Of a stretch of 8,780 bases of DNA, positions 2,096-8,780 are shown piece after piece. The stretch comes from Coriobacteriales bacterium. Lineage in GTDB: Bacteria > Actinomycetota > Coriobacteriia > Coriobacteriales > UBA8131. Below the pieces are notes generated by a model. It made no database searches. It was not told the DNA's origin and worked only from the letters and a program-made list of their open reading frames with translations. Position 1 is the stretch's first letter. The number at the start of each line of letters is the position of its first letter. The position numbers and the translations under genes were made by a program. The DNA lies in assembly GCA_031256575.1 (NCBI GenBank), contig JAIRQI010000072.1, positions 1 to 8,780 on the forward strand, written 5' to 3'.

Positions 2096-3037
2096 ATGAC
2101 AAAGTTCATGCGACCGGTAGTTACCGTTGAACGCGTCAGTGATACCATGGCGCGCTTCGAGGTTGAACCCTTGGAGCGTGGTTACGGTCAGACTTTAGGC
2201 AATAGCATGCGCCGCGTGCTGCTCTCATCCCTGGAGGGTGCGGCAGCGACCTCGATTATCATCGAAGGCGTGTTGCACGAGTTCTCCGCCATCGAGGGAA
2301 TCATCGAGGACGTCACAGATATCGTCTTGAATATCAAGGGCCTGGTCTTTTCACCCTTAGGCACTGGAGAAGAAGCTACGGCGACCTTATCCGCAGTTGG
2401 CCCGATGGTCGTTACTGGCGGTGACCTGCAGGTTCCGGCAGAATTCAACCTGGTTAACACCGACCACGTGATTGCCACCCTAGCTGAAGGCGGCCGCCTA
2501 GACATGAGCATCCGCATCGGCGTCGGCCGCGGTTATATTACCGCGGAGCAGAACAAGCGCCCCGATGACCCAATCGGCTTAGTGCCGGTGGACTCGCTTT
2601 TCTCCCCAGTTCGTCGTTGCACTTTAAACGTCGAAGACACCCGTGTCGGCCAACGCACCGACTACGACAGGCTGGTCCTGGAAGTCGAGACGAACGGTGC
2701 GATTACCCCACTGGAGGCAGTTTTGCGGGCGGCTGATATCATTCAGCAGCACATGGATGCCTTCACAGCCTTAGTCGGTGATGGGGAGAAGACCGAAAGC
2801 GCGACCATTTTTACCTCCGACGATGCCGTTGGCAGCGGAGACTTGGACAAGCAGGTCGAGGACCTGGATTTGTCCGTACGTTCATACAACTGTCTGAAGC
2901 GGGCGGGGATTCATTCCGTGCGTCAGTTAGTCGATTTCTCGGAGAACGACCTGTTGAACATCCGCAACTTCGGAGCCAAGTCCATCGAGGAAGTCAAAGA
3001 GAAACTGCACTCCATGGACCTCGACCTGAAGCAATAG
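2096..3037 (+). CDS. rpoA: DNA-directed RNA polymerase subunit alpha
   Basis: The alpha dimer is the assembly platform for RNA polymerase, and its C-terminal domain contacts UP elements and activators. The product is 313 residues, the normal length. The N-terminal domain (to about residue 230) shows GYGQTLGNSMRRVLLSS, the conserved dimerisation block, and VPVDSLFSPV with TRVGQRTDYDRL. A short acidic linker leads to the alpha-CTD (about 250-313) with LDLSVRSYNCLKRAGIHSV and NIRNFGAKSIEEVKEKL, including the residues that read the DNA minor groove. SD AGGAG at 2083-2087 is eight bases before the ATG. The stop codon lies inside the SD of rplQ. The N-terminal domain wording looks actinobacterial, near Coriobacteriia. 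Confidence 0.97.
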   Translation: MTKFMRPVVTVERVSDTMARFEVEPLERGYGQTLGNSMRRVLLSSLEGAAATSIIIEGVLHEFSAIEGIIEDVTDIVLNIKGLVFSPLGTGEEATATLSAVGPMVVTGGDLQVPAEFNLVNTDHVIATLAEGGRLDMSIRIGVGRGYITAEQNKRPDDPIGLVPVDSLFSPVRRCTLNVEDTRVGQRTDYDRLVLEVETNGAITPLEAVLRAADIIQQHMDAFTALVGDGEKTESATIFTSDDAVGSGDLDKQVEDLDLSVRSYNCLKRAGIHSVRQLVDFSENDLLNIRNFGAKSIEEVKEKLHSMDLDLKQ

Positions 3038-3049
3038 GAGGAGCAGCCG

Positions 3050-3871
3050 ATGCGACATTACAAACGTGGCCGTAAGCTGGGCACCGATGCCAGCCACACT
3101 AAAGCCATCAAAAAGAACCTGGTCGTCAGTATCTTCACTTACGACCGTATCAAGACCACCCTGGAGCGGGCCAAAGAGATTCGCGGCGACGTTGACCGGG
3201 TAGTCACCTGGGCCAAACGTGGCGATGTGCACTCCCGCCGTCTGGCAATTGCCAAATTGGGCAACAAAGACCTGGTCGCTGAGATATTCGCCAAGGTCGA
3301 GCAAGGCCTCTTCGAAGGCCGCGAGGGTGGTTACACCCGCATCCTGAAGCTGGGCAAACGCCGTGGCGACGACGCTATCGTGGTAATCATGGAGCTGGTG
3401 CAAGAGCCGGTTAGCAAGAAGAAAAAAGCTAATGAGGATGAGACCGCGTCCACCTCTACCCGTCGGCGTGGCCTACGCAGCCGGCGTGCCCGCGCCGCAG
3501 AGGCAGCGGAAGACGCCGAGACTCAACAGGTTGAAGCGACCGAGGACGATGCTGAGGGCGATGCTGTTGAGGACGACGCGGCCGAGGACGATGCGGCTGA
3601 GCTGGCTGAAGACGAAGTGGATGCTGAAGTCGAGGACGACGAGGATGGCGAGGACGGCGACGAGTCGGAGGACGATGCCGACGACGACGCGGACGACGGA
3701 GACGCGGACGACGATGCTGACGACACCGATAACGACGAAGACACCACCGAGTCTGACGACGACGCAGTCGATTCGGACGATGCCGCCGACAGCAGCGACG
3801 ACACCAACACCGCCGCCGCTAACGCTGACGATGACAGCGAACAAAGCAAACCCGCCGAGGAGGCGGAGTAA
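3050..3871 (+). CDS. rplQ: 50S ribosomal protein L17 with a long Asp/Glu-rich C-terminal tail
   Basis: L17 is a large-subunit protein located near the polypeptide exit tunnel. Residues 1-117 are an ordinary L17 core: MRHYKRGRKLG, then AIKKNLVVSIF, TTLERAKEIRG, and GGYTRILKLGKRRGDDA at the end of the domain. A basic hinge follows (KKKK at 123-126, RRR at 138-140, RSRRAR at 143-148). Residues 151-273 are an extreme acidic tail in which I count 66 Asp/Glu out of 123 residues and a single Lys, with Ala, Ser and Thr as filler. Total length is 273, against roughly 115-180 in relatives I know. SD AGGAGG (3036-3041) overlaps the rpoA stop. The tail is in frame with normal stop placement, so it appears genuine and not a frameshift product. 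Confidence 0.95.
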   Translation: MRHYKRGRKLGTDASHTKAIKKNLVVSIFTYDRIKTTLERAKEIRGDVDRVVTWAKRGDVHSRRLAIAKLGNKDLVAEIFAKVEQGLFEGREGGYTRILKLGKRRGDDAIVVIMELVQEPVSKKKKANEDETASTSTRRRGLRSRRARAAEAAEDAETQQVEATEDDAEGDAVEDDAAEDDAAELAEDEVDAEVEDDEDGEDGDESEDDADDDADDGDADDDADDTDNDEDTTESDDDAVDSDDAADSSDDTNTAAANADDDSEQSKPAEEAE

Positions 3872-3891
3872 TTCTTACCGCAGGTTCTCCG

Positions 3892-5619
3892 ATGACTTCT
3901 GAGGACTATTATTGCAACGACTGCCTTCAACGTCTTTTGACCTTGAAGGCAGCTTCGCGTTTGGGCGCGGCTGATTCCTCGTTGTTCGGACTCTATCCTG
4001 ACATCCAAGAGCAGGCTAGCAGCCGATTAGGCTGGGTTCATTTAGCTTCCGACCCGCCCTTCTCCGCAAAAGAAATCACCAGCTTAGCCCAGGGTATTCG
4101 CTCTGAAGGGCTGGATGCTGTGGTGTTAATCGGCCAGGGAGGGTCCTCCCAGGCTTCGATGACCATTACCAAGTTGCACGAGGTAGCTGCTGGCAACCAT
4201 CAAGCTGTGGCCTTTCGCACCATGGATTCGCTCTCTCCGGTCTTTGTCAACCACATTCTCGGGTCTTCTGACCCAGCCAGGACCATTTATATCATCTCAT
4301 CCAAATCCGGTTCGACCATTGAGCCTTTAATGTTAGAGCGGGTGGTTTGGCATTATGTGGCAGGACACCTGGGCAGTGCCGCTGCAGCCCGCCGTTTTGT
4401 GGCAATAACCGACCCCATGAGCAGGTTGGCTGAAATCGCCGCAGAACGCAATTACCGACTGGTCTTACCAGCCCAAACCGGAGTCGGGGGGCGTTTTTCG
4501 GCCCTGACAGTATCGACTCTCTTTCCGGCGGCGTTGGTCGGCATCGACATTCAGGCTGCCCTGGCTGGCGCGGCTATTACTGAAGCCGCCTGCACGGTAG
4601 ATACTGCTGAAAACCCCGCACTGCAACTGGCCTGTTTTCTATATGGTGCCTATCTGGCTGGTCGGGATAAGTTCTCTTTGGTGTTGCCGCCTTCCGGGCA
4701 GGTATTCGGCTTATGGGTTGAGCAGATGATTGCCGAATCACTGGGTAAAGCCGGTGTCGGCATTCTACCGAATGTCGAGGTCGATGCCAGCATCCTGGTT
4801 GTTCCCCATACTGACCGTTGTGTGATTACCTATGCTGTTGGAGAAGTCGACGGCTTTGCAGAATCAATTGCCAACATCGATGCCAGCATACCTCAGATGC
4901 ATGCGACAATCGACGACCCCACCCAGGCCTTCTCCCGTTTTGTGCTTTGGGAATATGCGACCGCCTTCCTGGGTATCTTGATGGGGGTGTTCCCCTTCGA
5001 CCAACCGGATGTCGAGCTGACCAAGCTAATCACTCAACAATTCTTAACTGGCCAAGACGAACCAGCCAGCGAGGTCTATCGCCAGTTTCCTCCCTTGGAT
5101 AGCTTCGTGTACGGGTTGCGACTATCCAATGCCTTGTTCGCCAGCTTGCAGGCTAGCGGCGACCCCGAGTCGCCGAGCCTCGACCAGCTATTACGGGTCT
5201 TGCTGGGGTCGTTTAGACCGGGTGATTATTTCTCGCTGAATGCTTTCATCCCATTTCGCGGATACGGTCGACGAGAGGCCTTGGAGCGTATGCGTAACCG
5301 GGTGGCTTCACGCTTGAACGTGGTGTCTTGCTTAGAGATTGGCCCACGCTATCTGCATTCTACTGGGCAGTTGCACAAAGGCGGCCCGGATAATGGTATC
5401 TACCTGATACTTTCTTCTGACGAGCGGGACGACCTGGTGATTCCCAATGAGAACCTGACACTGGGGGGCCTGGCTGCCGTACAAGCCCGGGCCGACTTCA
5501 CAGCCCTGGCTAAACTGGGACGCCGGGCCCTGCATGTTCATCTCTCTGACAATGACTCGGAGACCCTATCGCGTTTCGCAGACCGGTTCTGCTCAGCCAT
5601 CTCCGCCGTCCAAGTGTGA
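3892..5619 (+). CDS. pgi: Glucose-6-phosphate isomerase, Tal-Pgi type domain standing alone
   Basis: The enzyme interconverts glucose 6-phosphate and fructose 6-phosphate in the cytoplasm. In 575 residues two SIS (sugar isomerase) halves are visible. GQGGSS (81-86) and SSKSGSTIE (136-144) form the sugar-phosphate site, TGVGGRFSALT (196-206) follows, AESLGK (281-286) carries the likely catalytic Glu282, FDQPDVELTK lies at 369-378, and HSTGQLHKGG (489-498) has the likely catalytic Lys496. The last two motifs resemble the Pgi half of transaldolase-Pgi fusion proteins more than the classical E. coli enzyme, yet no transaldolase part is present. The ATG at 3892 lies 20 bases after rplQ without a convincing SD; GAGGAGG at 3857-3863 is too far. 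A start slightly downstream cannot be excluded. It may be cotranscribed with rplQ. Confidence 0.9.
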   Translation: MTSEDYYCNDCLQRLLTLKAASRLGAADSSLFGLYPDIQEQASSRLGWVHLASDPPFSAKEITSLAQGIRSEGLDAVVLIGQGGSSQASMTITKLHEVAAGNHQAVAFRTMDSLSPVFVNHILGSSDPARTIYIISSKSGSTIEPLMLERVVWHYVAGHLGSAAAARRFVAITDPMSRLAEIAAERNYRLVLPAQTGVGGRFSALTVSTLFPAALVGIDIQAALAGAAITEAACTVDTAENPALQLACFLYGAYLAGRDKFSLVLPPSGQVFGLWVEQMIAESLGKAGVGILPNVEVDASILVVPHTDRCVITYAVGEVDGFAESIANIDASIPQMHATIDDPTQAFSRFVLWEYATAFLGILMGVFPFDQPDVELTKLITQQFLTGQDEPASEVYRQFPPLDSFVYGLRLSNALFASLQASGDPESPSLDQLLRVLLGSFRPGDYFSLNAFIPFRGYGRREALERMRNRVASRLNVVSCLEIGPRYLHSTGQLHKGGPDNGIYLILSSDERDDLVIPNENLTLGGLAAVQARADFTALAKLGRRALHVHLSDNDSETLSRFADRFCSAISAVQV

Positions 5620-5839
5620 ACCCAAGCTACACCAGCGCGAGTGGCAAGAGCAGCTCTCACTAATCATCCAAGCCAAAACCGAATAATGATAGGCAAGCTG
5701 TTAAGGCAAACTTAAACTGGTAAGGCCAGCTAAGGCAAGCAAGGTTAAGGCAACATGCAAACAAGCACATCCAGCAAACTCCTAGAACAAATGTTTGGTG
5801 TTATGCTAAGATTTGTTTATTGCTTTTACAGGGGATGAG
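5620..5839. other. Intergenic gap between pgi and the TerB-family gene
   Basis: This 220-base gap has no convincing reading frame, no RNA gene I recognise and no GC-rich hairpin with a T-run. The 3' part is A-rich and contains five TAAGGC-like repeats (separate entry). A promoter for the downstream module probably lies in the AT-rich stretch 5780-5820, for instance with TATGCT (5802-5807) or TAAGAT (5807-5812) as -10, but no good -35 partner is visible. The gap marks the border between housekeeping genes and the accessory module. Confidence 0.5.
5689..5753 (+). repeat. Five short TAAGGC(A/C)A direct repeats upstream of the TerB-family gene
   Basis: Copies start at 5689 (ATAGGCAA), 5702 (TAAGGCAA), 5721 (TAAGGCCA), 5731 (TAAGGCAA) and 5746 (TAAGGCAA). 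Start-to-start spacings are 13, 19, 10 and 15 bases, which is too irregular for a standard iteron array or helical phasing. They lie 90-150 bases before the start codon and could be binding sites for a regulator of the module or simple degenerate repeat DNA. The copies are seen; any function is inference. Confidence 0.55.
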
Positions 5840-7513
5840 ATGGAAGAACAACGACTTCATAGCTCCAGTTACGACGACTATGTCGAGATAGAATACGATT
5901 CATTTGTTGACGTGGTCACAATTGGCGACCACGAATTTTACGACCAGGTACCAGCAGGACCTGCAGTATATGCTGCCCAACCCATTGACCGTCGGGCCAG
6001 TGACCCGATTCGTGAGCGGTTCTACAAAATGCGCAGCTTGGCCAGTGCTGACCCCTTCTCCCGCCGTGATTCGGAACTCTTCGTCAAGCAAGCCCAGTTC
6101 ATGGCGGACTTCACCGACGACTACTCCGACGATGTTCCATTGACGATGCTTTACCCCTGCTACCAGCGCCTTGGCTACGACCAGCTGCGCACCTATTTCA
6201 GCTGGCGAACAGAGGTCCGCAACAATCGGCTGCAGCAAACTTGGCTTTCCTACATCTTTCTCTATATCTACGAGCTGTTGAATGGCATCGCAGTCAGTGA
6301 CCTGCAGGATGGTTTGGCCAAACTGCTCGATATCTGGCTGACCTACCGCCAAGCTGAACCAGCCCTGGACTCCTACCTGCCGCGTTGGTTGAAGGACTAC
6401 CACATCTACTACCAGCCCCCGATAAGCTTCACTGATTTTGTCGCGGCAAACGACCTGTCGGTGTTTTACCCTGAGCAATCCCTGTTTACTGAGACCTCGA
6501 ACAATCTAGCGGTCTGGAACAGCATGTCCAGTTATGATGTCACGAAGTCGAAGTTCTATCTGGATGGCAATGCCGAGCTCATGCAAAGCTGTCTGGCTTA
6601 CGTGTTGGGAGCACTAAGCGAACTCTGCGCTAGTTTTAGTATGGATATCGCTGACTTGTTCTGGCTGGGCTTTCGTTCCAAGTCGTATTGGCGTCCCTTT
6701 CAAAAAGCCTTATTTGTGGATAAAACCGCGCAAGCTGAGCGGACTGTTGTGATAAGCAGCGCGGAGATATACAACTACGAGAACAGGCAATGGACTGTTG
6801 ATTCTGTCGTCTACCGAAGTGACCGGCGGGAGTTGGTCGGCTATCTGCTGAAGAAAACCGAAGCCTGCCTGCGTCAGGCTAGCAAGTACCGGTTCAAAAT
6901 CACTGCCAACCCCGGTTTGCAGCGCCTCAGTATCACTAAGGCTGGGATTCCCTTTGAGCAGTTTGAGCAGACAATCGAACAGGCAGTCCAGGGATTCATC
7001 CGTGAACAGAACCGCACTGTCGTCACTGTTGACCCGACTAATCTATCACGCATCCGAGAGGAAGCCCTAGATACCCAAGACCGTCTGACGGTTCCCGACC
7101 CAGCCGAATCCTTTGACACAATGATGACCAAGCAGATTGGCATCCAAGACCGAAGTACAGTCTCTGACCAGGAGCCTCAGCCAAGCGATGGTGCTTCCGG
7201 CTATACCCTAGAGACAGACCAGACCTTCACGGTTGCTGATTCTGCTTTACCATCAGACTCCAATGGCTGGCAGGATTTTCAGCAGGCTCTTGATACTGTG
7301 GAGCGGCAAGCGTTGGCCTTGGTATTGGGTGAAGGCTTAACAGCATTGGATTTGAAAACGTTCGCCGACCAAAACCAGATTATGCTGGAGGTCTTGCTAG
7401 ATAATATCAACCAGAAAGCAGTCGACTACATCGGTGATGTCATCATGGACACAGCAGGCATCCCAACAGTTTTTACCGAATACCATGAGCTAATCAAAGG
7501 AGTATTGATTTGA
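5840..7513 (+). CDS. TerB-N / TerB-C domain protein of a candidate stress or defence module
   Basis: The product is 557 residues. After an acidic N-terminus, a TerB-N domain spans about residues 58-191: it has KQAQFMADFTDDY, QLRTYFSWRTEVR, LSYIFLYIYELLNGI and RWLKDYHIYY, the standard pattern of this domain. A helical middle part (about 230-340) carries SYWRPFQKALF. A TerB-C region follows, split by a low-order linker (about 410-478), and ends in EVLLDNINQKAVDYIGDVI. No signal peptide, membrane segment or catalytic motif is visible, so it is probably a cytoplasmic scaffold or sensor. Comparative work on Ter systems places such proteins beside P-loop ATPases and helicases in predicted stress and phage-response loci. 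The ATG at 5840 has AGGGGATG (5830-5837) upstream; a TTG at 5813 lacks an SD. The molecular function is unknown. Confidence 0.85.
   Translation: MEEQRLHSSSYDDYVEIEYDSFVDVVTIGDHEFYDQVPAGPAVYAAQPIDRRASDPIRERFYKMRSLASADPFSRRDSELFVKQAQFMADFTDDYSDDVPLTMLYPCYQRLGYDQLRTYFSWRTEVRNNRLQQTWLSYIFLYIYELLNGIAVSDLQDGLAKLLDIWLTYRQAEPALDSYLPRWLKDYHIYYQPPISFTDFVAANDLSVFYPEQSLFTETSNNLAVWNSMSSYDVTKSKFYLDGNAELMQSCLAYVLGALSELCASFSMDIADLFWLGFRSKSYWRPFQKALFVDKTAQAERTVVISSAEIYNYENRQWTVDSVVYRSDRRELVGYLLKKTEACLRQASKYRFKITANPGLQRLSITKAGIPFEQFEQTIEQAVQGFIREQNRTVVTVDPTNLSRIREEALDTQDRLTVPDPAESFDTMMTKQIGIQDRSTVSDQEPQPSDGASGYTLETDQTFTVADSALPSDSNGWQDFQQALDTVERQALALVLGEGLTALDLKTFADQNQIMLEVLLDNINQKAVDYIGDVIMDTAGIPTVFTEYHELIKGVLI
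7496..7502 (+). promoter_or_regulatory. Ribosome binding site that sets the TTG start of the ATPase gene
   Basis: AAAGGAG at 7496-7502, inside the last codons of the TerB-family gene, lies seven bases before TTG at 7510. The TTG overlaps the preceding stop as TTGA. The combination supports a TTG start and translational coupling. The next in-frame ATG (7546) has no SD. Confidence 0.75.
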
Positions 7514-8780
7514 ACATAGACGAACAAGCCCCAGCAACAGACGACATGACCCAAGCCGCTCCGGCCCAGACTCCGGCTCAAGCCGCTGCACCGCCAGACC
7601 TTATAACTCAAGCAGCCTTGACACAGGCCCCCACCCAAACCGCTCCCACCCAGGTTCCCACCCGAATCGCCAACATCCTGATTAACTCCCTAAAGGGTGG
7701 AGTGGTACCGCGAGTTGGCCTGGAATACATCACCGTCGGACGGGCTCAAGAGATTGCTGCAATCTTAAACGACATTGAGCTGATAGCAGACGGTGGTGCC
7801 TCATTCAGGTTCATCGTTGGCCGCTACGGTAGCGGCAAGAGCTTCTTATTGCAGACTATCCGCAACTATGCGACCGCCAAAGGCTATGCAGTCGTCGATG
7901 CCGACCTCTCTCCAGAACGCCGTTTTGCTGGAACCAAGGGGCAAGGCCTGGCTACCTACAAAGAGTTGATTCAGAACTTATCCACAAAATCAAAGTTGGA
8001 CGGCGGGGCCTTGCCTTTGATTCTGGAGAAGTGGATTTCAGGTATCCAAACGGCAGTCAAAGCCCAAAGCGACCTGGAAGGTGCGGCTTTTGACAGCCAG
8101 GTTGAAAGGCAAATCTATGCTGTGGCCGGAGCCTTGGAAGGCATGGTCAACGGCTTTGAGTTCTCCAAAGCCATCGTCACTTACTGGCGGGCTTATCAAA
8201 GCGATGACACAGCCACTAAAAGCAACGTTTTAAAATGGTTCAGGGGAGAATACCTGACCCGCCGGGAAGCCCAAGCCGACCTGGGTATCAATTTCGTGGT
8301 CACAGACGAGAATTGGTATGACTTTTTGAAGGTCTTTGCGGTCTTTTTGGTCAGCGCCGGGTACCGTGGGCTACTGGTGCTGATTGATGAGCTGGTGAAT
8401 ATCTATAAGATTCCGAACTCGATTTCCCGCCAGAATAATTACGAGAAGATACTGACTATTTACAACGACGTTTTGCAGGGCAAGGCGCAAAACATCGGCT
8501 TCCTAATCAGCGGTACGCCACAGTGCATCGAGGACCGCTACAAAGGGGTCTTCAGCTATGAGGCCCTGCGCTCCCGACTGGCGGAGGGGCATTTTGCCAG
8601 TGAGGGGCTGCGCGACCTGACCGCTCCGATTATCCGCTTGCAGATGCTCACCCAGGAAGAAATGTATGTGCTGACCGAAAAACTGCGCGACATCCACGCC
8701 GGGCTGTATGGCTATTCGCCGACCCTTCAGCACGCCGACCTCGTCTATTTTCTGACTGTTGAATACAACCGGGTCGGCGC
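7510..8780 (+). CDS. BrxD-like (DUF2791) P-loop ATPase, 3' end cut by the window
   Basis: The frame is open from TTG 7510 to the window end, giving 423 complete codons. Residues 1-50 are a Pro/Ala/Gln/Thr-rich extension. The conserved region begins near residue 51 and includes VPRVGLEYITVGR (66-78). Walker A is GRYGSGKS at 104-111; DADLSPERRFAG follows. Walker B is LLVLIDE at 288-294 with acidic Asp293-Glu294, and GFLISGTP near 331-338 resembles a sensor-1 strand. This is the pattern of BrxD/DUF2791 proteins, which occur in BREX type 2 loci with a BrxHI helicase and also beside TerB-N proteins. The family is about 430-450 residues as I recall, so probably only a short C-terminus is missing. 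It likely uses ATP to act with the TerB protein and a helicase on DNA. Its exact reaction is unknown. Confidence 0.85.
   Translation, partial: MNIDEQAPATDDMTQAAPAQTPAQAAAPPDLITQAALTQAPTQTAPTQVPTRIANILINSLKGGVVPRVGLEYITVGRAQEIAAILNDIELIADGGASFRFIVGRYGSGKSFLLQTIRNYATAKGYAVVDADLSPERRFAGTKGQGLATYKELIQNLSTKSKLDGGALPLILEKWISGIQTAVKAQSDLEGAAFDSQVERQIYAVAGALEGMVNGFEFSKAIVTYWRAYQSDDTATKSNVLKWFRGEYLTRREAQADLGINFVVTDENWYDFLKVFAVFLVSAGYRGLLVLIDELVNIYKIPNSISRQNNYEKILTIYNDVLQGKAQNIGFLISGTPQCIEDRYKGVFSYEALRSRLAEGHFASEGLRDLTAPIIRLQMLTQEEMYVLTEKLRDIHAGLYGYSPTLQHADLVYFLTVEYNRVG

Follow-up and report, generated by a model that had tools for sequence, protein, structure and literature searches.

What kind of system is encoded by the two overlapping genes that end an 8780-base stretch of DNA from a Coriobacteriales bacterium (GenBank assembly GCA_031256575.1, contig JAIRQI010000072.1)? 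This stretch, hereafter the window, is the entire contig C5 of genome G000, and nothing is readable past position 8780 on it. The original prediction regarded the pair, a gene for a TerB_N/TerB_C protein followed by one for a BrxD-like ATPase, as a separate compact defence system borrowing a module of BREX (bacteriophage exclusion), with a helicase gene of the Lhr/BrxHI type coming next. Comparison with models of defence proteins indicates that the two genes are sngA and most of sngB of Shango, an already named anti-phage system and not a novel one, which Millman et al. (2022; cited in PMC10952713) reportedly also described first. On balance, the window probably holds this part of a Shango operon, whose third gene, sngC, would lie past the contig end and whose three proteins would act jointly against phage DNA.

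Assignment of the gene pair to Shango

Both members of the predicted pair are borne out by profile searches. The Pfam profiles TerB_N (7.4e-27, residues 66-235) and TerB_C (3.7e-12, residues 388-552) match the first protein over their cut-offs and BrxC_BrxD (PF10923, 2e-145) matches the second, and the sngA stop codon TGA (7511-7513) overlaps the sngB start codon TTG (7510-7512) as TTGA. Moreover, the PADLOC model of SngA matches at 1.7e-62, spanning residues 63-555 of the 557-aa protein, and that of SngB at 1.8e-163 (model positions 4-382 of 439). The ATPase was rightly placed in the BrxC/BrxD family, but it is SngB rather than BrxD, scoring 542.7 bits with the PADLOC model of the former and 155.5 bits (E 5.8e-46) with that of the latter, and with the NCBIfam BrxD model, whose cut-off is 350 bits, the truncated protein reaches 156.6. 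According to PMC10250203, Shango (SngABC) expressed in P. aeruginosa PAO1 inhibits several phages, and in E. coli it inhibits two phages modestly. An anti-phage role can be supposed for the copy in the window as well. With Shango this locus shares a TerB-domain protein and a BrxC/BrxD-family ATPase, which most relatives encode in this order and follow with a DEAD/DEAH helicase; SngA and SngB of the window and SngC of relatives are all recognised by PADLOC models. It differs in that its host belongs to the Coriobacteriia and the read sequence ends before a third gene, and in some clostridial relatives the genes are distributed among different contigs.

A scan of genome contigs yielded 183 loci with a SngB relative, the best 80 of which were kept. 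Among these 80, 76 loci have at least 600 bp of sequence upstream of sngB, and sngA is no more than 600 bp away in 64 of them; sngC lies within 1.5 kb downstream at 65 of the 77 having at least 700 bp downstream, and no other family of open reading frames (ORFs) recurs in more than 10 loci. This tabulation of neighbours, also suggested in the original prediction, supports the expected Lhr/BrxHI-type DEAD helicase as the next gene in relatives, although it cannot be read past 8780 here. The sngC gene starts directly after sngB in the congener G001, where it is truncated by the contig end, and a full SngC is encoded right after sngB in G016, another member of the family, with motifs GTASGKT, DEVH, SAT and QRLGRCGR and a far better match to the SngC model (8.7e-218) than to BrxHI (1.5e-120); both SngC proteins are 83% identical over the 229 aa available up to the G001 contig end. 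In the window's genome, sngC is likely to be located just past 8780. SngC was not found in the assembled part of this genome (1.06 Mb in 182 contigs, 63.6% estimated completeness), whose contig C5 stops inside sngB; the absence may be due to the third of the genome that the assembly lacks. The only match of the SngC search there, on contig C86, was rejected as a RecJ-RecQ-like fusion (RecJ_OB, DHHA1, DEAD and Helicase_C domains), an 850-aa ORF with an open 5' end (L033:2300-4849).

In the Protein Data Bank (PDB), the SngC family has its best relatives in 5v9x and 7lhl, two entries that bear the title ATP-dependent DNA helicase and that we take to be Lhr proteins, followed by YprA (6znp); the structure model of SngC is weak, with a mean predicted local distance difference test (pLDDT) score of 69.7. 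SngC, BrxHI, DruE and DpdJ have been grouped as one potential helicase clade in PMC12278908. Additional genes are inserted at some loci. A RecQ-like helicase gene (DEAD, RecQ_Zn_bind, RQC and HRDC domains) sits between sngA and sngB at L038:6011-7867, and the gap between sngB and sngC holds a DUF3791/DUF3990 pair (L047:8179-8900), a ParE-like toxin gene (L051:9660-9926) or a pair of small ORFs with no Pfam match (L025:10018-10582), as if toxin-antitoxin genes favoured this gap.

SngA is the variable member of the trio. Over 52 loci of the window's Shango clade (1326 pairs), median pairwise identity is 42.4% for SngA, 81.5% for SngB and 77.7% for SngC. Mean column conservation of SngA, calculated from 49 sequences, is highest in TerB_N (0.62) and residues 388-420 (0.67), reaches 0.58 in the compact C-terminal domain (residues 474-557) and falls to 0.16 in the linker between them (residues 421-473). 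Structural comparison with VIA-align produced middling scores only, and only for the C-terminal domain, the remainder of SngA being scarcely tested by this method; the SngA profile found no match among PDB sequences up to E 1, Foldseek gave none up to E 0.001, and inspection of the conserved columns by eye revealed no nuclease motif. At one locus (L115:2084-4606), a Radical SAM domain (Radical_SAM 7.9e-12) is joined to TerB_N-TerB_C in an ORF of 841 aa, which could be either a natural fusion or an effect of assembly. The features of the window are collected in Table 1.

Table 1. Positions of the Shango genes, their motifs and domains, and the flanking genes in the 8780-base window
Feature	Position	Strand	Remarks
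sngA, TerB_N/TerB_C protein	5840..7513	+	557 aa; ATG start, AGGGG upstream
TerB_N domain of SngA	6035..6544	+	residues 66-235
SngA linker	7100..7258	+	residues 421-473; pLDDT <50 (low confidence)
SngA compact C-terminal domain	7259..7510	+	residues 474-557; winged helix-turn-helix-like
AAAGGAG, likely sngB ribosome-binding site	7496..7502	+	within the end of sngA; seven bases before TTG
sngB, BrxC/BrxD-family AAA+ ATPase	7510..8780	+	TTG start; 423 aa read, contig end before stop
Walker A motif GRYGSGKS of SngB	7819..7842	+	from the sequence
Walker B-like motif LVLIDE of SngB	8374..8391	+	from the sequence
rpoA-rplQ-pgi flank	2096..5619	+	outside the system, marks its site; ORF list and Pfam
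pgi, glucose-6-phosphate isomerase-like	3892-5619	+	ORF list and domain match

Genomic site, distribution and kinship

The upstream part of the window is the end of a ribosomal-protein block, comprising rpsM, rpsK, rpsD, rpoA and rplQ, in which rpsM, rpsK and rpoA were identified by reading the ORFs. The rplQ ORF (3050-3871) encodes 273 aa, with the L17 domain at residues 22-117 followed by a long acidic, D/E-rich C-terminal extension, and relatives also carry long rplQ ORFs. A gap of 220 bp with no listed gene separates pgi from sngA, which is on the same strand as sngB. Since scans for promoters, terminators and repeats over positions 5500-6000 and for tRNA genes across the window detected nothing, no scar of a mobile element is visible at the junction of pgi and sngA. 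Base composition does not set off an island there either, guanine plus cytosine at third codon positions (GC3) being 0.606 in sngA and 0.638 in sngB and ranging from 0.548 to 0.693 in five flanking core genes.

SngB was detected in 16 of the 60 genomes of the order, namely four (G000, G001, G002 and G016) among the 33 genomes of the window's family, 11 of 27 in other families and, as a weak match, G008, which belongs to the window's family. Within the window's genus, three of four genomes carry it and the fourth is 61% complete. The Shango locus is not core in this family. The original prediction had named presence in all relatives as a point that would count against it, and such ubiquity is not observed in the window's family, while one clostridial genus, with SngB in all but 2 of its 19 species, comes close. 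Among 19 other family genomes in which pgi was found, 14 loci were fetched; 13 of them yielded a pgi-like ORF (picking missed it in L132), mostly preceded by rpoA and rplQ, and the ORFs picked at the 14 loci, where the stretch after pgi varies in extent, include no match to sngA or sngB. Downstream of pgi, the three congeners share two gene families (clusters c10 and c11) and have no Shango there, so in the window's genome the system has either been inserted at the 3' end of pgi or taken the place of something at this site.

A quick tree of SngB with 94 rows, whose named loci were chosen by similarity to the window, groups the window's family (four rows) with clostridial sequences and separates it from the rest of its order (11 rows from other families) by branches with a support of 100 in the Shimodaira-Hasegawa-like approximate likelihood ratio test. 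Because of this choice of loci, the clostridial bulk of the clade is partly a sampling effect, but the split of the family's SngB from that of its own order is not. Moreover, the four family rows stand at the base of the clade, outside the clostridial rows and with weak support (81 to 89), and, being basal rather than nested, they do not point simply to transfer from clostridia. Between the window and L047, a locus in a metagenome-assembled genome (MAG) of Oscillospiraceae that carries rpoA, rplQ and sngB on a single contig, identity amounts to 45% for rpoA, 36% for rplQ and 82% for SngB. Slow evolution alone would not yield this last value, since the other families of the order, although closer kin, have SngB proteins that share only about 56 to 62% identity with the window's. 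Thus, horizontal transfer of Shango between the window's lineage and clostridia, in either direction, seems likely from these sequence comparisons. In the same MAG (L047:1566-8129), sngB lies a few genes past rpoA-rplQ as in the window, a resemblance that is probably a coincidence.

The genes adjacent to Shango were surveyed at 69 loci through 119 immediate neighbour proteins (no more than one per side, each from a complete ORF and 100 to 900 aa long), with a PADLOC threshold of E <= 1e-10. They matched 35 PADLOC families, none by more than two members, and Cas3 models account for 23 of the best 25 of the 35. As a DEAD domain at E <= 1e-5 is present in just 2 of the 119 proteins, the matches to Cas3 models should come from at most two proteins, and those to QatD are probably two TatD proteins. 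Therefore, the immediate neighbours of Shango are seldom defence genes, a statement that applies to adjacent genes and not to those further out. Restriction-modification genes preferentially colocalise with Shango outside defence islands, as stated in PMC10924106, a pattern that agrees in part with this island-free habit.

Unlinked Shango genes in clostridia

In some clostridial relatives of the window's clade, the Shango genes do not form an operon. Thirteen genomes were examined, 12 for SngA, 12 for SngC and 11 for both; they were chosen for an absent nearby partner or a short flank, and the counts are thus not a rate. The searches detected SngA in all but G061 and G071 (10 of 12) and SngC in all but G063 (11 of 12), and full-length SngB is present as one copy in each of 12 searched genomes, with two additional weak matches in G070. 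At least one partner is on a different contig from sngB in 11 of 12 genomes, sngA being separated in G060, G062, G063, G064 and G068, and sngC in G062, G064, G065, G066, G067, G069, G070 and G072. Fragmentation of the assemblies alone is not sufficient to account for this arrangement, because the partner lies well inside its contig in G062, G064, G065, G066, G067 and G070; the cases on short contigs (G060, G063, G068 and G072) or with sngC near a contig end (G069) are weaker. Loci with separated yet kept Shango genes are L048, L049, L108, L082, L083, L110, L065, L067, L090 and L170-L181. In the Oscillospiraceae loci L038, L041, L045 and L059, sngA is preceded by one shared gene family, taken to be an aspartate/ornithine carbamoyltransferase, which is matched by 4 of the 119 flanking proteins. 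G062 and G063 keep sngA after the same family, as judged by eye, with sngB elsewhere, hence the operon seems to have broken up stepwise.

Surveys of SngB alone illustrate how unevenly the system is held. Full-length SngB occurs, once per genome, in 17 of the 19 species of the genus of G062; it is present in 10 of 61 genomes in the genus of G065 (11 counting one weak match) and in 18 of the 150 genomes of the family that includes this genus and Acetatifactor muris (22 with weak matches). The idea that Shango is core throughout clostridia was rejected on the last two counts. In the literature passages available on Shango, unlinked genes are not mentioned. A tentative proposal is that, in the gut clostridia of the window's clade, Shango may have ceased to be a mobile defence island and become a resident single-copy trio of unlinked genes acting in trans, in which a near-invariant SngB-SngC DNA motor would be combined with a fast-changing SngA sensor, operon copies being traded across phyla, including that of the window.

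A possible mechanism and competing explanations

If the three proteins act together, SngA, with its variable sequence and its winged-helix-like C-terminal domain, would recognise the infection or the phage DNA and serve as an adaptor; SngB, a BrxC/BrxD-type AAA+ ATPase, would oligomerise and load or activate SngC; and SngC, a superfamily 2 (SF2) helicase resembling Lhr and BrxHI, could then translocate on phage DNA and stop its replication. The formation of a complex and the order of action are proposed by analogy with BrxD and BrxHI, from which the loading or activation of SngC by SngB and the sensor or adaptor role of SngA are derived. In PMC12839542, BrxD is described as an ORC-Cdc6-type AAA+ ATPase, possibly loading or activating BrxHI; the two make up a tightly linked dyad, BrxHI being Ski2-like with an Lhr-type C-terminal domain. 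This dyad of BREX type 2 shares its ATPase family with SngB and its SF2 helicase is related to SngC. However, SngB is far under the BrxD cut-off, and a TerB protein is found where the BREX core would be. Moreover, the fact that SngA varies and SngB and SngC do not suggests that SngA meets the phage and that SngB-SngC operate as a constant motor, and the retention of separated genes makes a toxin-antidote arrangement, which would favour linkage, less likely. The passages available on Shango give no mechanism. Hachiman (HamAB) likewise pairs an SF2 helicase, there the DNA-sensing partner, with a second protein, whereas HamB is related to Ski2 helicases and SngC falls in a separate potential clade, according to PMC12278908; in addition, Hachiman is devoid of an AAA+ ATPase, and SngA shows no nuclease motif by eye.

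The retention of unlinked genes could also be explained if SngABC in the window's clade were mainly a resident genome-maintenance machine, dealing with DNA damage or stalled forks, with phage restriction as a secondary function. The single full-length SngB of nearly all species in one clostridial genus, the partners kept on other contigs in 11 of 12 genomes picked for missing neighbours, the scarcity of defence genes beside Shango and the likeness of SngC to Lhr-type helicases would all fit. Nevertheless, this explanation is considered unlikely, since the system is patchy elsewhere, in the window's family (4/33), the rest of the order (11/27) and the Acetatifactor muris family (18/150), SngB kinship crosses the species tree, SngA is variable and Shango restricts phage in other hosts.

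That G000 carries a decaying remnant, with sngA and sngB intact as far as read and sngC lost, appears improbable. SngC was indeed missing from the assembled part of this genome, but the assembly is incomplete, the contig stops inside sngB, both sngA and sngB are open as read and the congener G001 retains the start of sngC in place. Even less credit can be given to a compact novel system that borrowed BrxD, as the original prediction envisaged, or to a reduced form of BREX. Reading of the ORFs agrees with it in that no BREX core gene (PglW, PglX, PglZ or BrxC/PglY) is seen in the window, nor is any further defence gene recognised there beside sngA and sngB; the system is therefore compact as far as the window goes, but it would be the known Shango rather than a separate one. 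The BrxC_BrxD domain and the match of the G016 SngC to the BrxHI model recall BREX, yet the SngB and SngC models far outscore those of BrxD and BrxHI and the BrxD equivalog cut-off is not reached. Furthermore, a genome-wide search, made for PglZ only, found none over the cut-off in the incomplete G000 (one match at 18.6 bits, below it), and only G055 passed it among 16 searched genomes of the order. A metal or oxyanion stress system, suggested by the names TerB_N and TerB_C alone, has the poorest prospects of all, because no other ter gene (terC, terD, terE or terZ) was seen on reading the ORFs of the 8780 bases and the TerB protein is accompanied by an AAA+ ATPase and, in relatives, by a DNA helicase as well.

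The window, read as part of a Shango operon, adds a locus of an already known system to a family in which Shango is patchy. Its relatives indicate that a defence system may be split across the chromosome and yet be retained, and that SngA differs at roughly threefold more positions than SngB or SngC. This suggests that defence finders requiring adjacent genes could miss or mislabel split systems. How the three proteins divide their tasks is directly testable in the natural variants whose genes are separated.

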